This document shows, one piece after another, positions 13,238 through 21,788 of a DNA stretch of 45,783 nucleotides. The notes beneath the pieces are model-generated. The model was not told where the DNA came from and did not search any database. It was given only the letters and a program-made list of their open reading frames with translations. The stretch's first letter is position 1; every line of letters begins with the position of its first letter. The stretch is from positions 1 through 45,783 of the forward strand of contig JASJDO010000003.1 of NCBI GenBank assembly GCA_030065115.1, read 5' to 3'. A program made the translations under genes and the position numbers. Origin of the DNA: Rhizobiaceae bacterium. GTDB lineage: Bacteria; Pseudomonadota; Alphaproteobacteria; Rhizobiales; Rhizobiaceae.

Positions 13238-13825
13238 ATGAAAAAGTCCGCATTGAAGTTTGCTGTAGCAACAGCAGCGTTTTTTGTTTCAAGTGCTGCC
13301 TATGCGGCATGTACTGCACCAGCAGCGAAAGACGACCTTACCGACGAGCAAATTGTTGAAGTATATGAGTGTATCAAGGCCGACCTTCGCGCCGGGTATG
13401 CGAAAAGCGACAACCCGTGGGCGAGCGACTATGTAAACTGGGGCGCAACAGCAACACGCCCAGCTGCACCTGGTCCACACGGCAACCGTTTCCTCATGAC
13501 GTGGGTTAATGAAGTAGGCCTCGAAGAATACAACAAATATTCTGACGAGCGCGAAGATAATCCGATGCCAGTTGGTACTGTGATTGCCAAAGAGGTTTTC
13601 AACGTCAACAAGAAGAATGAGGTCAAAAAAGGCCAACTGTTTTTCATGGAAAAAGTTGCTGCCGGTAATGCTGATGAGTTCGGCAACTGGATTTACTCAG
13701 CGATCAAGTCCAATGGTGATCCGATGAAGATTTCCCAGAAGTTCTGTCACGATTGCCACGGTGCATTCTCTGATCAGGATGCTCTTGGTTATCCCGATGA
13801 AGACGTTCGTCTGACTTCGAACTAA
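13238..13825 (+). CDS. Cytochrome P460 family c-type haem protein
   Basis: A 195-residue periplasmic haem protein. A signal peptide (MKKSALKFAVATAAFFVSSA, cleaved near AYA) precedes a cytochrome P460 fold: Trp-rich N-terminal segment, PGPHGNRFLMTWVNEVGLEEY, MPVGTVIAKEVF, GQLFFMEK, FGNWIYSAI. It ends with a single haem c motif C170-H-D-C173-H174 near the C-terminus, where P460-type proteins carry it. P460 family members include hydroxylamine or nitric oxide oxidising enzymes and NO-binding cytochrome c'-beta. Which lysine, if any, cross-links to the haem cannot be settled by eye; several Lys surround residues 128-145. GGGAG lies 8 bp before the ATG. A terminator follows, so the gene is monocistronic and convergent with the next one. 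Confidence 0.85.
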   Translation: MKKSALKFAVATAAFFVSSAAYAACTAPAAKDDLTDEQIVEVYECIKADLRAGYAKSDNPWASDYVNWGATATRPAAPGPHGNRFLMTWVNEVGLEEYNKYSDEREDNPMPVGTVIAKEVFNVNKKNEVKKGQLFFMEKVAAGNADEFGNWIYSAIKSNGDPMKISQKFCHDCHGAFSDQDALGYPDEDVRLTSN

Positions 13826-13889: not shown

Positions 13890-14426
13890 CTATTTTTCAT
13901 GCCGCCAGTGATGAACGCCAGCCACAATAAGCCCGAACACCATGTGTCCCCAAAGTGCAACCCAAGTGATGCTACCCCATCCGAGAAACGGCGGATTGCC
14001 AGCAACAAGGTGTGCCATAATGTACAAGGCAAAGACGAAGAGTGCCACGCCATAGACTGCACCTGTTCCCCACCACGGCAAGAACGGTGTAACCTTTTTT
14101 GAGATTGGGCGTGCGATGAGCATATACCCGAGAGGATATAGAATAAGTCCTGTCAGCAAGTGTATCCCGTGACCAATCCCATATTGTGAAATCAGTTTGC
14201 TGCCTAACCCGGTGATAATGCCGAGTGATTGGTTGGCGAGTGCAACTGGTGCCAGTTTTGCACCCAGATACGGGGCAAACAAATCTTTCAGCAATGGGCT
14301 GATGGTTTGCCCGAACAGATCAAATCCGAGTGTTGCAAATGCTCCTGCAAGAACGGCGGTTGTCAAAAGCTTGGAATTGATAGTGGGTGTTTCGAACGTT
14401 TGGGCTTGTGCCGACATATCGGTCAT
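13890..14426 (-). CDS. Multi-pass membrane protein of unknown function
   Basis: A 178-residue protein with about four to five membrane helices after a ~20-residue polar N-terminus: LTTAVLAGAFATLGFDLFGQ, a helix containing GIITGLGSKLI, GHGIHLLTGLILYPLGYML, GTGAVYGVALFVFALYIMAHLVAG and ITWVALWGHMVFGLIVAGVHHW. Several membrane-embedded His residues (GHGIHLL, AHL, GHMVFG, HHW) could bind haem or metal, but this is only suggestive. The layout loosely resembles DUF6789-type membrane proteins; I am not certain of that link. It is convergent with the P460 gene and divergent from the benzoate-CoA ligase gene, sharing a ~200-bp regulatory gap that holds a CRP-type palindrome. Confidence 0.7.
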   Translation of the reverse strand: MTDMSAQAQTFETPTINSKLLTTAVLAGAFATLGFDLFGQTISPLLKDLFAPYLGAKLAPVALANQSLGIITGLGSKLISQYGIGHGIHLLTGLILYPLGYMLIARPISKKVTPFLPWWGTGAVYGVALFVFALYIMAHLVAGNPPFLGWGSITWVALWGHMVFGLIVAGVHHWRHEK

Positions 14427-14630: not shown

Positions 14631-16169
14631 ATGCAGAACGAAAATTCCGCGATATATTTTGTCGATAGACATTTGCAGGAAGGTCGCGGAGAAAAGGTAG
14701 CGTTTCGCGAGGCTGCAGGCAGTGAGCGCGCCATTACATATGGACAACTCTCCGCAAGATCGGCGTTGGTCGCGGGTGCATTTGAAAAAGCAGGAATAAA
14801 GCGCGAAAGCAGGATCGCCTGCTTGCTGCTTGATCAGATTGAATATGTCGAGGTTTTTTGGGGTGCTCTCAAGGCAGGCGTAATTCCGGTAGCGCTGAAC
14901 ACGCTGCTTTCAACGTCAGTCTATGATATCATTTTGCGCGATAGCCGTGCGAACTGCTTGATAGTGTCCGTGGAACTTTGGCCGGTCATAGAGACAATAG
15001 TCGGCGATAACCCGTATCTGGAGACCATCATTGTCGTGGGTGATAAGACGCCTCCAGGAACACTGTCCTATGAAGAGTTTATGTCAGGAGCGGAAGAAAT
15101 CTCTCCGGTTGCGGTCAGTGGTGATGAATGTGCTTTCTGGCTTTATTCCTCCGGTTCTACTGGCCAGCCGAAGGGCGTGCGTCATGTCCACAGTTCGATG
15201 AAGGCAACAGCAGATACGTTTGGACGGGAAGTTCTCGGAATTGAAGAAAAGGACATTGTCTATTCCGCTGCCAAGATATTTTTCGCATATGGGTTGGGTA
15301 ACACGTTCTCTTTCCCAATGTCGGTGGGCGCAACCTCTATTCTGTTCAATGGGCGTCCGACACCCGACGTGGTGGCACAGATTATTGAAACGCATGAACC
15401 CACCATCTTTTGCGGCGTGCCGACGCTCTATGCTGCCATGCTTGCTTTTTTGGAGCAGCATAGTGTGCCTGCAAACAAATTGCGGCTCTGTGTATCCGCC
15501 GGTGAGGCCTTGCCGGCCGACATTGGCAACACCTGGCACAAACTATGGGACGTTGACATCATTGATGGCGTTGGCTCAACGGAGATGCTGCATATCTTTC
15601 TGTCCAACCGTCCGGACAATCTTGAATACGGAACATCAGGTCTTGCGGTTCCCGGATATGAATTGCGATGCGTCAACGAAGACGGGTCGCCAATACAAAA
15701 AGGCGAAATCGGCGAGTTGTTGGTGAAGGGTGCCTCAGCTGCGGATGGATATTGGAACCAGCGCCACAAGAGCCGAACCACCTTTGAAGGAGAATGGACG
15801 CGAACAGGAGACAAATATGAGATCTCCGAGAGTGGACGCTTCATCTATTGCGGGCGTACGGACGACATGTTCAAAGTATCTGGCATTTGGGTCAGTCCGT
15901 TTGAAGTCGAGCAGGCATTGATTGAACATGCGTCTGTTCTGGAAGCCGCCGTTGTTCCGGCCCGCGATGATAAAGATCTCGAGAAGCCAAAGGCATTCGT
16001 TGTTTTACAGGAAAGCGCAAACCCGACCGGCATCGATGAGACACTCAAAGAGTTTGTCAAAGAAAAGATCGGCAAATGGAAATATCCCCGCTGGATTGAA
16101 GTGGTCGATGACCTTCCCAAAACCGCGACTGGCAAGATCCAGCGCTTCAAACTGAGAGATGCAACATGA
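14631..16169 (+). CDS. bclA: Benzoate-CoA ligase
   Basis: A 512-residue adenylate-forming enzyme that activates benzoate with ATP and CoA to benzoyl-CoA, the first step of the aerobic CoA-dependent 'box' pathway. It has the AMP-binding motif YSSGSTGQPKG at residues 172-182 and family-typical stretches NTLLSTSVYDIILRDSRA, KIFFAYGLGNTFSFPMSVGAT and CVSAGEALP. The catalytic lysine of the C-terminal domain is Lys502 in KTATGKIQRFK. These features match the benzoate-CoA ligase subfamily better than generic acyl-CoA synthetases. GGGAGGG lies 7 bp before the ATG. The last codon overlaps the next start (ATGA), so ligase and hydrolase are co-translated. Substituted benzoates cannot be excluded as substrates. 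Confidence 0.92.
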   Translation: MQNENSAIYFVDRHLQEGRGEKVAFREAAGSERAITYGQLSARSALVAGAFEKAGIKRESRIACLLLDQIEYVEVFWGALKAGVIPVALNTLLSTSVYDIILRDSRANCLIVSVELWPVIETIVGDNPYLETIIVVGDKTPPGTLSYEEFMSGAEEISPVAVSGDECAFWLYSSGSTGQPKGVRHVHSSMKATADTFGREVLGIEEKDIVYSAAKIFFAYGLGNTFSFPMSVGATSILFNGRPTPDVVAQIIETHEPTIFCGVPTLYAAMLAFLEQHSVPANKLRLCVSAGEALPADIGNTWHKLWDVDIIDGVGSTEMLHIFLSNRPDNLEYGTSGLAVPGYELRCVNEDGSPIQKGEIGELLVKGASAADGYWNQRHKSRTTFEGEWTRTGDKYEISESGRFIYCGRTDDMFKVSGIWVSPFEVEQALIEHASVLEAAVVPARDDKDLEKPKAFVVLQESANPTGIDETLKEFVKEKIGKWKYPRWIEVVDDLPKTATGKIQRFKLRDAT

Positions 16170-16993
16170 CGGGCTTTCAATGGTCAGATGGCGGTGACGG
16201 GTTTTTGGTGATTGGTGATAAGAAACTTGAATACCAATCCTGGGGCCCGTCTCCTGAGCAAGCTCCAACCTTGATCATGCTGCATGAGGGTTTGGGATGT
16301 GTGGAATTGTGGCGTGACTTTCCACAAAAGCTGGCATCTGAAACGGGCTTTGGCGTATTCGTCTATTCCCGGGCTGGATATGGTAAGTCGGATAGTTGCG
16401 AACTGCCCCGGCCTGTAGATTATATGAGTGTGGAAGCTGAGCAAATACTGCCACAGGTTCTCGATCAGATCGGGTTTCAGCGTGGGGTTCTTTTGGGTCA
16501 TTCCGATGGTGCAAGCATTGCCTCAATTTATACCGGTTTCAGGCAAGACCATCGGGTGCGCGGGCTTATTCTCATTGCCCCACATTTTTTTACTGAAGAT
16601 ACAGGGCTCGAAGAAATCGCACAGATCAGGGATGAATATGAAACAACCGATTTAAGAGCGCGTATGGGAAAATACCATCGCGATCCTGACAATGCGTTCA
16701 GGGGTTGGAATGATGCGTGGCTTGATCCTGAGTTCAAGGAATGGAACATTGCCGATGCAATTGACTATTTCCGAATTCCTGTATTGGCGATTCAGGGCAC
16801 GAACGATCCCTATGGAACATTGGCTCAGATCGAGGAAATCGAACAGCGCATCTATTCTCCACTTGATACAGAGATCATCGATGGCTGCGAACATGCCCCG
16901 CACATCGAAGAACCGGCTCGAACACTTTCATCGATAGCGAGCTATCTGGAACGACTTCAGCAAATTGAAGCTGGTAAACCCCTGGTTGCTTGA
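16166..16993 (+). CDS. Alpha/beta-hydrolase of the benzoate cluster
   Basis: A 275-residue cytoplasmic alpha/beta-hydrolase overlapping the ligase gene by 4 bp. The likely triad is Ser113 in GHSDGAS, Asp214 in GTNDPYG and His243 in CEHAPH, all at normal family spacing; the oxyanion region is MLHEGLGC. There is no signal peptide. Related hydrolases occur in other box clusters (from memory), but their role is not established. From context it could act as a thioesterase that recovers CoA from stalled benzoyl-CoA intermediates, or hydrolyse a lactone or ester by-product. It is not BoxD, which is an aldehyde dehydrogenase. A ~200-bp gap with a new promoter region follows before boxC. Confidence 0.85.
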   Translation: MTGFQWSDGGDGFLVIGDKKLEYQSWGPSPEQAPTLIMLHEGLGCVELWRDFPQKLASETGFGVFVYSRAGYGKSDSCELPRPVDYMSVEAEQILPQVLDQIGFQRGVLLGHSDGASIASIYTGFRQDHRVRGLILIAPHFFTEDTGLEEIAQIRDEYETTDLRARMGKYHRDPDNAFRGWNDAWLDPEFKEWNIADAIDYFRIPVLAIQGTNDPYGTLAQIEEIEQRIYSPLDTEIIDGCEHAPHIEEPARTLSSIASYLERLQQIEAGKPLVA

Positions 16994-17123
16994 ACTGTAT
17001 GCTTTCAGAAGCAATCCAAATCCGGACGAGCGCGCGTTACTACCGCCCCACACTCGATGATTAGTCAAAAATTGAACTAACTGTAAGCCACTCCGATGAG
17101 GCCTATTTCTCAATCAGTAATTA

Positions 17124-17170
17124 TGCATTATAATGCATATTTAAAGTTTTGAGATATGCATTATAATACC
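17124..17170 (+). promoter_or_regulatory. Candidate BoxR operators overlapping the boxC promoter
   Basis: Two near-identical boxes lie 33 bp apart, about three helical turns. Box 1 is TGCA-TTATAA-TGCA (17124-17137), a perfect 14-bp palindrome. Box 2 is TGCA-TTATAA-TACC (17157-17170). Each contains an exact TATAAT (17129-17134 and 17162-17167) that can serve as a -10 element. BzdR/BoxR repressors are known to bind TGCA-containing operators that cover the promoter. The site is 23 bp before boxC, whose ribosome-binding site GGAG lies at 17181. The regulator gene boxR is the last gene of this operon, which fits autoregulated repression. Confidence 0.7.
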
Positions 17171-17192
17171 AATTCAGAACGGAGATGCATTC

Positions 17193-18854
17193 ATGACAAA
17201 AATGATCGATTTTCAGACAAACCCGTCTGAGTATCGCCACTGGCGCGTTGAATATGAAGGTCCGGTGGCAAATCTGATTATGGATGTTGATGAGGATGGC
17301 GGGCTCTTTGAAGGATATCAGCTAAAGCTGAATTCTTATGACCTAGGCGTCGACATTGAGCTCGCTGACATTGTCCAGAGAATGCGGTTCGAACACCCAG
17401 AAGTCAAAGTTGTCGTAATGCAATCGGGCAAGGATCGTGTGTTTTGCGCTGGTGCAAACATTCGGATGTTGGGCGGTGCAGCACACAGCCATAAAGTCAA
17501 TTTCTGCAAATTCACAAATGAAACTCGCAATACCTATGAGGCAGCCGAAGCGGATTCGGGGCAAAAATACATTGCAGCCGTCAAGGGATCGTGTGCAGGC
17601 GGCGGTTATGAATTGGCACTGGCGTGCAACCACATCATGTTGACGGATGACAGCACATCATCGGTTGCGCTGCCTGAAGTGCCATTGCTTGCAGTTCTGC
17701 CTGGAACCGGTGGGCTCACTCGGGTAACCGACAAGCGCAAGGTGCGTCGCGATCTGGCGGATATTTTCTGCTCTGTCGAAGAAGGCATCCGTGGCAAGCG
17801 GGCGAAAGAGTGGAGACTCGTAGATGAAGTAATCTCTAACTCAAAATTCGACGAGACTGTCGTTCAGCGTGCTCAGGAATTTGCGGCGCAATCAACCAAG
17901 CCAGACGTTGCGAAAGGCATAGAACTGGGTCCGATCGTAAGACGGTTCGGGGACGATGGCTCAGTCACCTATTCTACAGTGGAAGTGTCGGTAGATCGTG
18001 TTGCGCGAAAGGCGACTATCTTGATCAAAGGGCCAACCGAAGATGCGCCTTCTGATATGGCTGAATTCACTGAACAGGGAGATCAGGCATATTTGTTGCG
18101 TCTGGCACGCGAACTTGATGATGCCATCCTGCATCTTCGTCTCAATGAAATGGAAGCTGGTCTTTTGGTATTCACAAGCCAGGGTGATCCTTCTCTCTTG
18201 GCGGGTCACGAACAAGTCTTGCTACGGGATGCAGAACACTGGCTGTCGAAAGAAGTGATGGCCTATTGGAAACGCATTCTGAAGCGCATTGATGTGACGT
18301 CTAGATCCATGGTGGCGCTGGTCGAGCATGGTTCTTGTTTTACTGGTGTGCTTGCTGAAATTCTCTGGGCGGTCGATCGTTCCTACATGATGGAAGACGA
18401 ATTTGAAGGGGACAATCGACACATCGCCAGCGTATTGCTGACACCATCCAATTTTGGGAGTTTTCCCATGGCGAATGGCCTGACCAGGCTTCAGACACGG
18501 TTTCTACATGACGAGGATGCAGTAGCCGCAGCTCAAGAAACCATCGGCAATGCCCTTGAGGCGTCAGATGCGGATGAGTTGGGTTTGGTAACCATCATTC
18601 TCGACGAAATCGATTGGGATGATGAAATCAGAATATTTATGGAAGAACGCGCGTCCTTCTCTCCCGATGCTATGACAGGCATGGAGGCTAACCTCAGGTT
18701 TTCTGGACCTGAGACTATGGAAACGCGGATATTTGGCCGCCTCACAGCATGGCAGAACTGGATATTCAATCGACCAAACGCAGTGGGAGAAGCAGGAGCG
18801 CTACAGCGCTATGGCACCGGCTTGCGTGGCGAATTTGATATGGAACGCGTGTAA
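17193..18854 (+). CDS. boxC: 2,3-epoxybenzoyl-CoA dihydrolase (BoxC)
   Basis: A 553-residue BoxC, an enoyl-CoA hydratase/isomerase-superfamily enzyme that hydrolytically opens the ring of 2,3-epoxybenzoyl-CoA to 3,4-dehydroadipyl-CoA semialdehyde and formate. The N-terminal half has the crotonase core with the oxyanion-hole segments DRVFCAGANIRML and KGSCAGGGYELALAC. It continues with ALPEVPLLAVLPGTGGL and the long C-terminal domain that distinguishes BoxC from ordinary crotonases. The length is normal for the family (about 550). ATG 17193 has GGAG 8 bp upstream; a second Met three codons later is possible. It is the first gene of boxC-boxB-flavodoxin-boxR and follows the two TGCA operator boxes. 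Confidence 0.95.
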   Translation: MTKMIDFQTNPSEYRHWRVEYEGPVANLIMDVDEDGGLFEGYQLKLNSYDLGVDIELADIVQRMRFEHPEVKVVVMQSGKDRVFCAGANIRMLGGAAHSHKVNFCKFTNETRNTYEAAEADSGQKYIAAVKGSCAGGGYELALACNHIMLTDDSTSSVALPEVPLLAVLPGTGGLTRVTDKRKVRRDLADIFCSVEEGIRGKRAKEWRLVDEVISNSKFDETVVQRAQEFAAQSTKPDVAKGIELGPIVRRFGDDGSVTYSTVEVSVDRVARKATILIKGPTEDAPSDMAEFTEQGDQAYLLRLARELDDAILHLRLNEMEAGLLVFTSQGDPSLLAGHEQVLLRDAEHWLSKEVMAYWKRILKRIDVTSRSMVALVEHGSCFTGVLAEILWAVDRSYMMEDEFEGDNRHIASVLLTPSNFGSFPMANGLTRLQTRFLHDEDAVAAAQETIGNALEASDADELGLVTIILDEIDWDDEIRIFMEERASFSPDAMTGMEANLRFSGPETMETRIFGRLTAWQNWIFNRPNAVGEAGALQRYGTGLRGEFDMERV

Positions 18855-18922
18855 CGCAGGAAGAAATCAGCACGGAACCTCTGCTTTCGTGCCTGGCAGG
18901 ATAAAAAGACCCGGAGAGAAAA

Positions 18923-20374
18923 ATGCAAGGTTTGATGAACGTTGAATATGATACACTAATTCCGAACAATGTTGGACTGTCGCAAGACAAGCGCGTTCAA
19001 AAGGCCTTGGAAAAATGGCATCCCGGATACATCAACTGGTGGAATGATCTTATTCCAAAAGAGTTTCAGGAAAGCCTTGTATATCTGCGAACTGCAGTGA
19101 GTGTAGATCCGAAGGGATGGGCAAAATTCGACTATGTCAAAATGCCTGAATACCGCTGGGGTATTTTGCTCGCACCACAGATCGAGGATCGTATGATCCC
19201 GTGCGGGGAACATGTCGGAGAACCTGCCTGGCAAGAAGTTCCCGGTGAATATCGTGCCATGTTACAAAGACTGATTGTGATCCAGGGAGATACAGAACCG
19301 GGTTCGGTTGAGCAGCAACGTTTCTTGGGTCTCACTGCACCATCGCTTTATGACATGCGCAACCTGTTTCAGGTGAATGTGGAAGAAGGGCGTCACCTTT
19401 GGGCCATGGTCTACTTGCTGCAAAAATATTTTGGCAAAAATGGACGCGAAGAAGCTGATGACCTGTTGATCCGATCATCTGGATCAGATGAGGCTCCGCG
19501 AATGCTGGGTGCTTTCAACGAGGAAACTCCCGACTGGCTTTCATTTTTCATGTTTACATACTTCACAGACCGTGACGGAAAGATGCAGCTTGAATCCCTT
19601 GCCCAATCTGGCTTCGATCCTTTGTCCCGGACCTGCCGCTTCATGTTGACTGAAGAGGCCCACCACATGTTTGTTGGTGAAACCGGTGTAACGCGTGTGG
19701 TGCAGCGCACATGCGAAGCAATGAAGGAAGCCGGGATCGATGACCCTTACGACATCAATAAAATTCGTGATCTTGGCGTCATCGATCTGCCGACAATCCA
19801 GAAAAAGTTGAACATGCACTACACACTTTCTCTGGACTTGTTTGGACAGGAAGTTTCAACGAACGCGGCCAATGCGTTTAACGCAGGCGTTAAAGGTCGC
19901 TTCATGGAGCACAGAATTGAAGATGATCACAAACTACAGGATGCCACATACCCGGTCGTTCAGTTTGAAGATGGTGAAATCAGATTGAAAGACGTGCCCG
20001 CGCTCACAGCGATCAACATGCGATTGCGTGATGACTACAAGAAAGATGCCTCAGGTGGCTTGCGTCGTTGGAACAAATTGATTGAGAAATCAGGTGTTGA
20101 GTTTGAACTGAAACTTCCTCACGAAGGCTTTAACCGGGCCATTGGTATTTTTGCTGGCAAGCCAATCGATCCCGATGGCAATCTTCTGTCACAAAGTGAC
20201 TATGACGCCCGCAAGAATGATTGGTTGCCCACTTCTTCCGATGGTGAGTTCATCCAATCCCTGATGGTTCCCTGCTACGAAGCTGGCCAATACGCGGGTT
20301 GGATTGCACCACCAAAAGTCGGCATCAACAACCAGCCGGGTGATTTCGAATACGTGCAACTGCACATGGCATGA
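18923..20374 (+). CDS. boxB: Benzoyl-CoA 2,3-epoxidase component B (BoxB)
   Basis: A 483-residue class I diiron monooxygenase that epoxidises benzoyl-CoA with O2. All six iron ligands described for Azoarcus evansii BoxB are present with a constant +5 offset: Glu125, Glu155, His158 (EEGRH), Asp216 and Glu245/His248 (EEAHH). The CoA/substrate region around QGDTEPGSVEQQRFLG is intact. The length is standard. GGAGAG precedes the ATG. In characterised systems BoxB receives electrons from the FAD/iron-sulfur reductase BoxA, but no boxA gene is in this window. The next gene, 19 bp downstream, is a flavodoxin. Confidence 0.96.
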   Translation: MQGLMNVEYDTLIPNNVGLSQDKRVQKALEKWHPGYINWWNDLIPKEFQESLVYLRTAVSVDPKGWAKFDYVKMPEYRWGILLAPQIEDRMIPCGEHVGEPAWQEVPGEYRAMLQRLIVIQGDTEPGSVEQQRFLGLTAPSLYDMRNLFQVNVEEGRHLWAMVYLLQKYFGKNGREEADDLLIRSSGSDEAPRMLGAFNEETPDWLSFFMFTYFTDRDGKMQLESLAQSGFDPLSRTCRFMLTEEAHHMFVGETGVTRVVQRTCEAMKEAGIDDPYDINKIRDLGVIDLPTIQKKLNMHYTLSLDLFGQEVSTNAANAFNAGVKGRFMEHRIEDDHKLQDATYPVVQFEDGEIRLKDVPALTAINMRLRDDYKKDASGGLRRWNKLIEKSGVEFELKLPHEGFNRAIGIFAGKPIDPDGNLLSQSDYDARKNDWLPTSSDGEFIQSLMVPCYEAGQYAGWIAPPKVGINNQPGDFEYVQLHMA

Positions 20375-20393
20375 TCAGTTTGGAGATATCTCA

Positions 20394-20852
20394 ATGAAAA
20401 TCGGCTTGTTATATGGAACCGAAACTGGAAATTCCGAATTGCTGTGTGATGATATCATTGACAAAATTGGCGATGATTATGAGTGCAGCATCGCCAATTT
20501 GGGAGAAACGAATCCGTCTGACCTCGATCCACAGATATTCTATATATTCGTGACCTCCACTTACGGGAATGGTGATCTGCCTTCCGGGGCAGCGGAATTT
20601 TATGACAAACTGGAGAGCCAGAAAACCGATCTTCGTGGATTGCGTTTTGCCATTTTTGGACTGGGAGACATGGTTTTCGAATATACCTTCGCGCAGGGTT
20701 CGGAGAAACTCATGGAATTGCTGAAGGCATCCAATGCAAAGATGGTCGGTGAGCGCGGTATACACGATGCTTCATGCGGTGAGATGCCCGAAGATGTTGG
20801 TTTGCCATGGCTTGATGGAATTCTTTCGGAAATCGCACTTGAGTTGGCTTAA
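20394..20852 (+). CDS. Stand-alone flavodoxin in the box operon
   Basis: A 152-residue short-chain flavodoxin. The FMN phosphate loop is TETGNS (residues 9-14) after strand MKIGLLYG. The first isoalloxazine loop is TSTYGNGD (54-61) and the second is around FGLGDMVFEYTF (89-99). The TSTYGNGD wording is closer to the FMN domains of diflavin reductases (cytochrome P450 reductase, CysJ) and MioC than to classical nitrogen-fixation flavodoxins. The start at 20394 is the first Met of the domain, with GGAG about 8 bp upstream. It sits between boxB and boxR, spaced 19 and 30 bp, so it belongs to the benzoate operon. Its most likely job is electron delivery to BoxB from an NAD(P)H reductase encoded elsewhere. 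This is inference from context. Confidence 0.88.
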   Translation: MKIGLLYGTETGNSELLCDDIIDKIGDDYECSIANLGETNPSDLDPQIFYIFVTSTYGNGDLPSGAAEFYDKLESQKTDLRGLRFAIFGLGDMVFEYTFAQGSEKLMELLKASNAKMVGERGIHDASCGEMPEDVGLPWLDGILSEIALELA

Positions 20853-20882
20853 GAAAACACCCAAACCAATGTTGTTGGTTCA

Positions 20883-21788
20883 ATGTCTGACCCTTTGATA
20901 CAACAAGAACCTGGGCATGCCTCTGTGCCAGAGGCAATTCCTGATTTGCTGCGGCATGTTGGTGAACGCATCCGCGCAGTGCGCGAATCGAAATCTATTT
21001 CCCGTCAAAAGCTTTCTGCCATATCCAATGTTTCGCCCCGCTATCTGGCACAAATTGAGGCGGGGGAAGGGAACCTGTCGATTGCCGTTTTGAAGCGAAT
21101 ATCGTTGGCTCTGGATTGCCCAATGACCGGCTTGCTCTGTGATGACGCTGAACTGGATGCTGCTTCGCTTGCAGCCGCAGACCTTTTTAACAGGGCAGAT
21201 GCATCAACACGTAAGGCGGTGATGGAGCTTCTCGCGCCTTCGCCACAAAAACTTGAACGCGCCAACCGCATATGTCTCATCGGATTGCGGGGAGCCGGCA
21301 AGTCCACACTTGGAAAAATGCTTGCTGAAGAAACCGGTGCAGCATTTATTGAACTCAATCGTGAAATTGAAGACATGGTGGGTATGCCGATTGCGGAGAT
21401 CATGGCGTTGTATGGCCAGGAGGGATTTCGAAAGTTTGAGGCGATCACCCTGAACCGAATTGCCGAAAGAAAAGATCGCATCGTATTGGAAGCAGCTGGT
21501 GGCGTTGTGAGTGAATCTGCTACGTTTGCGAATCTGTTGGCGCGGTTTCACACGATCTGGATCAAGGCGAGCCCCCAGGAACATATGGAACGGGTGCTGG
21601 CGCAAGGCGATACAAGGCCCATGGCCGGAAACCCCGAAGCCATGGCTCAATTGAAACTGCTTTTGAAGGATCGCGAGCCTTTGTATGCACAGGCACTTGT
21701 ACATCTGGATACATCAAGCAAGCCGCCTGAGAAATCACTGACTCAATTGTCAAAGCTCGTCCGTGAGCACAATTTTCTGGACAATTGA
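20883..21788 (+). CDS. boxR: Transcriptional regulator BoxR (XRE HTH + shikimate kinase-like domain)
   Basis: A 301-residue BoxR/BzdR-type regulator of benzoate genes. Residues ~23-85 form an XRE helix-turn-helix (RQKLSAISNVSPRYLAQIEAG). A linker leads to a shikimate-kinase-like domain with the P-loop GLRGAGKST (134-142), a Walker-B-like region and the AGGVVS segment. In BzdR and BoxR this domain binds benzoyl-CoA, which releases the repressor from DNA (known for the family). It is the last gene of boxC-boxB-flavodoxin-boxR, 30 bp after the flavodoxin, without an evident promoter of its own, so expression is probably autoregulated through the TGCA boxes upstream of boxC. No terminator is visible before the convergent hemB. 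Confidence 0.93.
   Translation: MSDPLIQQEPGHASVPEAIPDLLRHVGERIRAVRESKSISRQKLSAISNVSPRYLAQIEAGEGNLSIAVLKRISLALDCPMTGLLCDDAELDAASLAAADLFNRADASTRKAVMELLAPSPQKLERANRICLIGLRGAGKSTLGKMLAEETGAAFIELNREIEDMVGMPIAEIMALYGQEGFRKFEAITLNRIAERKDRIVLEAAGGVVSESATFANLLARFHTIWIKASPQEHMERVLAQGDTRPMAGNPEAMAQLKLLLKDREPLYAQALVHLDTSSKPPEKSLTQLSKLVREHNFLDN

Follow-up and report, generated by a model that had tools for sequence, protein, structure and literature searches.

A flavodoxin gene at the boxA position of a Rhizobiaceae box cluster and its proposed role as electron carrier for BoxB

In the box cluster of a Rhizobiaceae bacterium, the gene for the benzoyl-CoA 2,3-epoxidase BoxB is followed by a gene for a stand-alone flavodoxin, at the position that boxA holds in relatives. 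We propose that this flavodoxin is a dedicated electron carrier for BoxB that replaces BoxA and is reduced by a separate reductase, most likely an Fpr-type protein, and we put the probability of this reading at about 0.72. A split chain from a reductase via the flavodoxin to BoxB, in place of BoxA, had been suggested by an initial annotation of the same DNA and is supported here by comparison, through the exchange of genes in place, the lack of BoxA and the presence of Fpr in the genomes that share the arrangement. The electron transfer and the identity of the reductase are inferred, as is FMN binding, and there are no biochemical, expression or redox-potential data.

Box cluster and flavodoxin of the source genome

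The window, by which we mean the whole stretch of 45,783 nucleotides that was analyzed (GCA_030065115.1, contig JASJDO010000003.1), contains a box cluster in the order ligase, hydrolase, boxC, boxB, flavodoxin and boxR (Table 1). Only 19 bases separate boxB from the flavodoxin gene and 30 bases the latter from boxR; a porphobilinogen synthase gene lies 3' of boxR on the opposite strand. The hydrolase (Hyd) represents a family that is found again in many box clusters. Just upstream of the cluster are the genes for a cytochrome P460-domain protein and for a small protein without family match. A boxD-type aldehyde dehydrogenase, present in several BoxA-type clusters, is absent from the window cluster itself (14631-21788).

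Table 1. Coordinates of the box genes in the window and of other features mentioned in the text.
Feature	Location	Coordinates	Strand	Match or remark
Benzoate-CoA ligase	window	14631..16169	+	TIGR02262, 719 bits (cut-off 375)
Alpha/beta hydrolase (Hyd)	window	16166..16993	+	Abhydrolase_1; no assigned function
boxC	window	17193..18854	+	TIGR03222, 949 bits (cut-off 712)
boxB, benzoyl-CoA 2,3-epoxidase	window	18923..20374	+	483 aa; TIGR03225, 899 bits (cut-off 499)
Flavodoxin at boxA position	window	20394..20852	+	152 aa; Flavodoxin_1, 72 bits (cut-off 25)
boxR-type regulator	window	20883..21788	+	helix-turn-helix and shikimate-kinase-like domain; PRK08154, 352 bits (cut-off 204)
Cytochrome P460-domain protein	window	13238-13825
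Protein without family match	window	13890-14426		178 residues
P450-reductase fusion (by eye)	L002 (source genome, contig C178)	1405-3504		best match to the BoxA model
Sister-clade flavodoxin divergent to PaaA-like protein	L198	9655-11041
Sister-clade flavodoxin divergent to PaaA-like protein	L200	10042-11475
Sister-clade flavodoxin divergent to PaaA-like protein	L138	1561-2907
Sister-clade flavodoxin divergent to PaaA-like protein	L199	9689-10981
Sister-clade flavodoxin divergent to PaaA-like protein	L136	8208-9500
Reductase 3' of boxB	L083	10915-11880		321 residues; FAD, NAD and [2Fe-2S] domains (scanned)
Reductase 3' of boxB	L101	8107-9072		321 residues; judged by family

The BoxB of the window meets the curated TIGR03225 cut-off and aligns with the solved BoxB 3per at 672 bits. 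The diiron ligands of Azoarcus evansii BoxB are Glu120, Glu150, His153, Asp211, Glu240 and His243 (PMC5489048). These align with E125, E155, H158, D216, E245 and H248, so that the diiron set is complete, as had been stated in the initial annotation, and membership as BoxB is met on both counts.

That annotation had also placed a 152-residue flavodoxin directly after boxB, which is correct: the protein passes the Pfam gathering score of Flavodoxin_1 and its predicted structure (mean pLDDT 94.8) matches the fold. Its assignment to the diflavin-reductase/MioC type stands only as a likeness, as the NCBIfam MioC model gives 79.6 bits, below the cut-off of 158, and membership is not met. The closest solved structure is instead cindoxin (4oxx; TM 0.87, 35% identity), which is also the top profile match. 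At positions T11, G12, Y57, G58, G91 and D92, which belong to the FMN-holding loops of flavodoxins, both flavodoxin alignments show little or no variation; FMN binding by the window protein is inferred. A false open reading frame could be ruled out, because the model is confident and 24 other genomes have the gene at this position, with 51-73% identity.

Lack of BoxA and exchange at its position

No protein in the whole source assembly exceeds the cut-off of the BoxA model (TIGR03224, 459 bits). The best match reaches 85 bits and corresponds to the reductase end of a long open frame on another contig. Inspected by eye, this frame is a P450-reductase fusion resembling CYP102, with P450-type and flavodoxin-type stretches (Table 1). 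The lack of a BoxA with this boxB, noted at first for the window, is thus borne out across the assembly, and a complete boxA elsewhere in it was not obtained above cut-off. Membership in the two-component BoxAB system is accordingly not met by the window. With a completeness of 94.1% in 191 contigs (3.18 Mb), the absence of BoxA from the source genome alone is not proof.

In a sample of 199 genomes of the same order, BoxB was found in 45 (source genome included) and BoxA in 33 of the 45. Of 41 newly found BoxB genomes, 40 loci were fetched, one genome (G393, two fragments) being left out; in these genomes flavodoxins were judged at the loci and not genome-wide. boxA directly follows boxB in 30/40 fetched loci, and one locus of the order (L152) has boxB, flavodoxin and boxR as in the window. 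A public scan with the flavodoxin profile gave 371 relatives, of which the best 80 were kept. Among these best 80, the order boxC, boxB, flavodoxin occurs in 23, with boxR within a few genes downstream in 22/23 (the remaining locus ends early). The nearest of the 23 is a Rhizobiaceae-group assembly with a flavodoxin 73% identical to that of the window; the other 22 are titled as Rhodobacterales or members of this group, e.g. Tateyamaria, Roseicyclus and Pacificoceanicola, lineages having been checked for two of the public genomes and the rest taken from titles. Tateyamaria omphalii KCTC 12333 (L218) is a cultured strain with the in-place cluster. The other loci of the best 80 have an FprA-like gene directly 5' of the flavodoxin (42), a flavodoxin divergent from boxR (7), or are of other kinds or uncalled (8). 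Gene labels at the loci are BLAST clusters, not curated models, and in L268 the flavodoxin was not called by the gene finder. Recurrence in 23 public contigs and in L152 indicates that the gene order is more than chance. Together with the source genome these make 25 genomes with the flavodoxin in place, none of which has a BoxA over cut-off (23 of them stem from the best 80 of 371 relatives, and their completeness is not given).

The in-place BoxBs nest among BoxA-partnered BoxBs, 15 being found with 12 in one starred set. For the large BoxB tree, sequences of <400 residues were dropped, plus 10 near-copies of the 148 kept. A near-clade tree of only 30 BoxBs joins 13 in-place with 12 BoxA-partnered sequences at a support of 99/95. 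This nesting makes BoxA the older partner, and on the basis of synteny and trees boxA seems to have been replaced in place by the flavodoxin gene. The BoxB tree needs four changes and a single in-place clade is not rejected (p-AU 0.113), so that one swap cannot be told apart from several. BoxA is described as specific for NADPH and FAD and as carrying two [4Fe-4S] clusters; it is needed only in minor amounts and its interaction is suggested to be transient (PMC4498308), which would make an exchange of the partner easier.

In the flavodoxin tree (33 of 129 sequences dropped, midpoint root), the in-place flavodoxins cluster in a starred set that includes one sequence of a different kind; they group with FprA-linked flavodoxins and are apart from those encoded divergently from boxR. 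A place of the window flavodoxin in the boxR-divergent clade was considered and rejected, since its position in the tree is among the FprA-linked flavodoxins, within a set marked 96*; this rests on that branch and on the midpoint root. To the extent permitted by a single supported branch and such a root, the two recruitments of flavodoxins to BoxB appear separate.

A sister flavodoxin clade is encoded divergently to PaaA-like diiron proteins (PF05138) at 5 loci (Table 1). On the PaaA model, for which the cut-off is 280, these proteins reach only 54-78 bits, and their clusters include enoyl-CoA hydratase-like genes and, by eye, thioesterase genes. At 5 other loci of the sister clade, enoyl-CoA hydratase-like neighbors are present and no PaaA-like gene was noted.

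Reductases and alternative partners

In the proposed chain, the FMN of the flavodoxin would be reduced by an NADPH reductase that contains FAD and whose gene lies outside the cluster; the most likely candidate is the Fpr-type protein encoded on contig C166. The reduced flavodoxin would then dock on BoxB and hand over two electrons singly. With these, the diiron site would become diferrous before O2 binds; benzoyl-CoA could then be epoxidized and the ring opened by BoxC. The two jobs of BoxA would thereby be split over two proteins, with FMN replacing the iron-sulfur carrier.

A search of the source genome for ferredoxin/flavodoxin-NADP reductases yielded four proteins in which an FNR-type NAD domain is present. 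One is PaaE-like (390 bits, just under the cut-off of 421), two are fusions (the P450-type one and a flavohemoprotein-like one), and the fourth is the Fpr-type protein of 272 residues. The latter aligns with the solved reductase 2bgi at 440 bits, though it reaches only 127 of the 390 bits required by the NCBIfam Fpr model. Reductases were counted in 80 chosen genomes. Of the 37 genomes without either partner, only 12 are among these 80; 32 of the 80 have the other, boxR-divergent flavodoxin type, and three of the 32 also carry BoxA. Fpr is present in 25/25 in-place genomes (23 of these from the best 80 of 371 relatives), 8/32 with the other flavodoxin type, 5/11 with BoxA alone and 2/12 with neither; the adrenodoxin-type FprA is found in 0/25 (same 23 of the best 80 of 371), 27/32, 3/11 and 5/12, respectively. 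Fpr and/or FprA occurs in 30/32 genomes of the other type, and an FprA gene lies <=5 genes from boxB in 8/22 of their loci. The two flavodoxin types therefore seem to live with different reductases. As the in-place genomes are clustered relatives and Fpr may be a core gene, 25/25 represents a prerequisite that is met, not an association.

The flavodoxin might feed BoxB and yet be reduced by PaaE, the P450-fusion reductase or another flavoprotein. The box cluster has no reductase gene of its own and the source genome offers these other candidates; we nevertheless judge this reading unlikely in view of the occurrence of Fpr-type proteins throughout the in-place genomes and of the similarity of the source protein to 2bgi, and PaaE, which includes a [2Fe-2S] domain itself, supplies PaaA (PMC4498308).

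Whether BoxB requires either partner can be viewed against a class sample of 385 genomes, in which BoxB was found in 81, source genome included. BoxA is present in 14/81 (in one of the 14 it is cut by a contig end and falls under the cut-off). Flavodoxins of the box type, both kinds taken together, occur in 33/81 BoxB genomes versus 6/304 without BoxB (Fisher p 1e-19, uncorrected for kinship); related genomes are non-independent counts. The profile used (A1) was made from 21 flavodoxins of box clusters, so that its scores favor these; the border of at least 186 bits was set at a gap in the scores (186 to 167) and gave 39 genomes. A single-protein search, which includes the sister clade, found 39/80 BoxB genomes at E 1e-10. 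Flavodoxin is present in 30/67 BoxB genomes that lack BoxA and in 3/14 with BoxA, which is not significantly rarer (Fisher p 0.14), and a test of flavodoxin/BoxA pairs on the tree had too few pairs to decide. Neither partner was found in 37/81. Hence a flavodoxin cannot be inferred from the lack of BoxA alone, the idea that the two always go together is rejected, and BoxB, if active in the 37 genomes, can do without both.

A motif scan of the neighbors at 46 loci with neither partner nearby detected a [2Fe-2S] reductase in 2 and FprA in 1; such a scan can miss, since the control [4Fe-4S] motifs were seen in 39/43 BoxA loci. At L083 and L101 a 321-residue reductase lies 3' of boxB and would be a further, third type of candidate donor (Table 1). 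Five large genomes of one family (L049, L164, L166, L169 and L174) have ligase, hydrolase, boxC and boxB, no BoxA in the genome and no flavodoxin nearby. At L059, L079, L097 and L117, boxB and one small gene are followed by FprA and two genes that by eye resemble 2-oxoacid:ferredoxin oxidoreductase subunits.

The many genomes with neither partner leave room for another carrier, such as a stand-alone ferredoxin that with Fpr would feed BoxB, the flavodoxin then being a back-up, e.g. under iron limitation. Elsewhere in the source genome, short stretches do match the ferredoxin portion of BoxA. We regard this as rather improbable, because the flavodoxin gene is placed inside the operon immediately behind boxB and keeps this place in 25 genomes (23 from the best 80 of 371 relatives), and a back-up carrier would have no need of the position of BoxA.

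The other flavodoxin type has a different neighborhood. In the 22 fetched class loci with boxB and flavodoxin, the window apart, the flavodoxin is directly divergent from boxR in 22/22, and in 7 further genomes it is divergent from boxR at a separate place. With the window counted (same strand, 5' of boxR), it is beside boxR in 30/33; among the remaining 3, two adjoin the hydrolase and one adjoins a ligase gene close to the end of its contig. Six genomes have a flavodoxin in which BoxB was not found: in four it is beside Hyd (L190, L191, L192 and L193, two of the stretches being nearly identical) and in two it is near transport genes and an FprA-like gene (L194 and L195). These flavodoxins are perhaps relics, or the partner of another oxygenase.

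The adjacency to boxR in this second type and the pairing with Hyd in four genomes where BoxB was not found could mean that the flavodoxin has some other pathway or regulatory task and adjoins boxB merely as a member of the operon, which we consider very improbable since the exchange of boxA, the PaaA-like neighbors of the sister clade and the Rieske-linked relatives (see below) all point to oxygenases, and to our knowledge nothing known of the hydrolases or BoxR requires electrons. A dedicated flavodoxin, reduced by Fpr and replacing BoxA, remains the preferred reading.

Comparison with known systems

Searches of the open-licence literature for BoxB or phenylacetyl-CoA epoxidase with a flavodoxin, for a diiron oxygenase with a flavodoxin and for a missing boxA did not retrieve this pairing, and the portions available of PMC9765128, PMC8632152, PMC12008989, PMC9873259 and PMC12521323 contain nothing on a BoxB-flavodoxin pair; we found no description of flavodoxin-driven diiron arene epoxidases in the open-licence papers searched. 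In a genome survey, box clusters that lack boxA are counted as incomplete, and the absence was read as an impediment in the case of one Paraburkholderia cluster (PMC10803450). With BoxA in so few of the BoxB genomes of the class, a rule that requires boxA would set most of them aside.

More broadly, we lean, at little better than even odds, towards the view that diiron epoxidases of the BoxB/PaaA type have an exchangeable donor slot, into which flavodoxins were recruited at least twice (replacing BoxA, and beside boxR with FprA) and perhaps a third time beside PaaA-like proteins, with a [2Fe-2S] reductase taken up in one lineage. If the proposed chain is correct, it would represent a new redox partnership for diiron oxygenases and provide a simple two-protein donor for laboratory use of BoxB; the power supply of a family of oxygen-using enzymes that open benzoate would be exchangeable, which raises the question of how a single diiron surface can accommodate both kinds of donor, [4Fe-4S] and FMN, in turn. 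That the exchange brings any gain is only inferred; that an iron-free flavodoxin might help marine bacteria is speculation.

The window shares BoxB with its diiron site, BoxC, the ligase and BoxR with the BoxAB system of A. evansii, as well as NADPH as the source of electrons in our proposal (PMC5489048; PMC4498308). It differs in the lack of BoxA, with a gene for an FMN-type flavodoxin at the place of boxA in relatives and the reductase elsewhere in the genome. In the P450cin system electrons pass from NADPH through cindoxin reductase and cindoxin to the P450, and E. coli flavodoxin reductase can substitute for the FAD reductase of cindoxin (PMC9687028). There, too, a stand-alone flavodoxin is the redox partner of an oxygenase and depends on a separate FAD reductase, but the oxygenase is a haem P450 and not a diiron enzyme. 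PaaABCE contains a related diiron epoxidase of CoA esters, and PaaA-like proteins are the neighbors of the sister flavodoxin clade; unlike the arrangement in the window, PaaE is an FAD/[2Fe-2S] reductase and PaaA acts in a multi-subunit complex (PMC4498308).

Among the best 80 of 371 relatives, the flavodoxins encoded directly after an FprA-like gene are 41-55% identical to that of the window (best segments). On three plasmids, a pair of FAD-dependent oxidoreductase and flavodoxin is located in clusters with Rieske or ring-hydroxylating oxygenases, and on a fourth the same pair is present without such an oxygenase in the stretch examined; the chromosomal FprA-flavodoxin loci were grouped with these Rieske-linked pairs by like gene order only and were not each checked. 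In contrast to such pairs, FprA is missing from the in-place BoxB genomes. NrdI of the class Ib ribonucleotide reductase is likewise a flavodoxin with a diiron protein as its partner. NrdI acts in assembly or upkeep of the cofactor of a reductase rather than in the turnover of an arene epoxidase, and shows that a flavodoxin serving a diiron protein, as proposed here for BoxB, is not without precedent.
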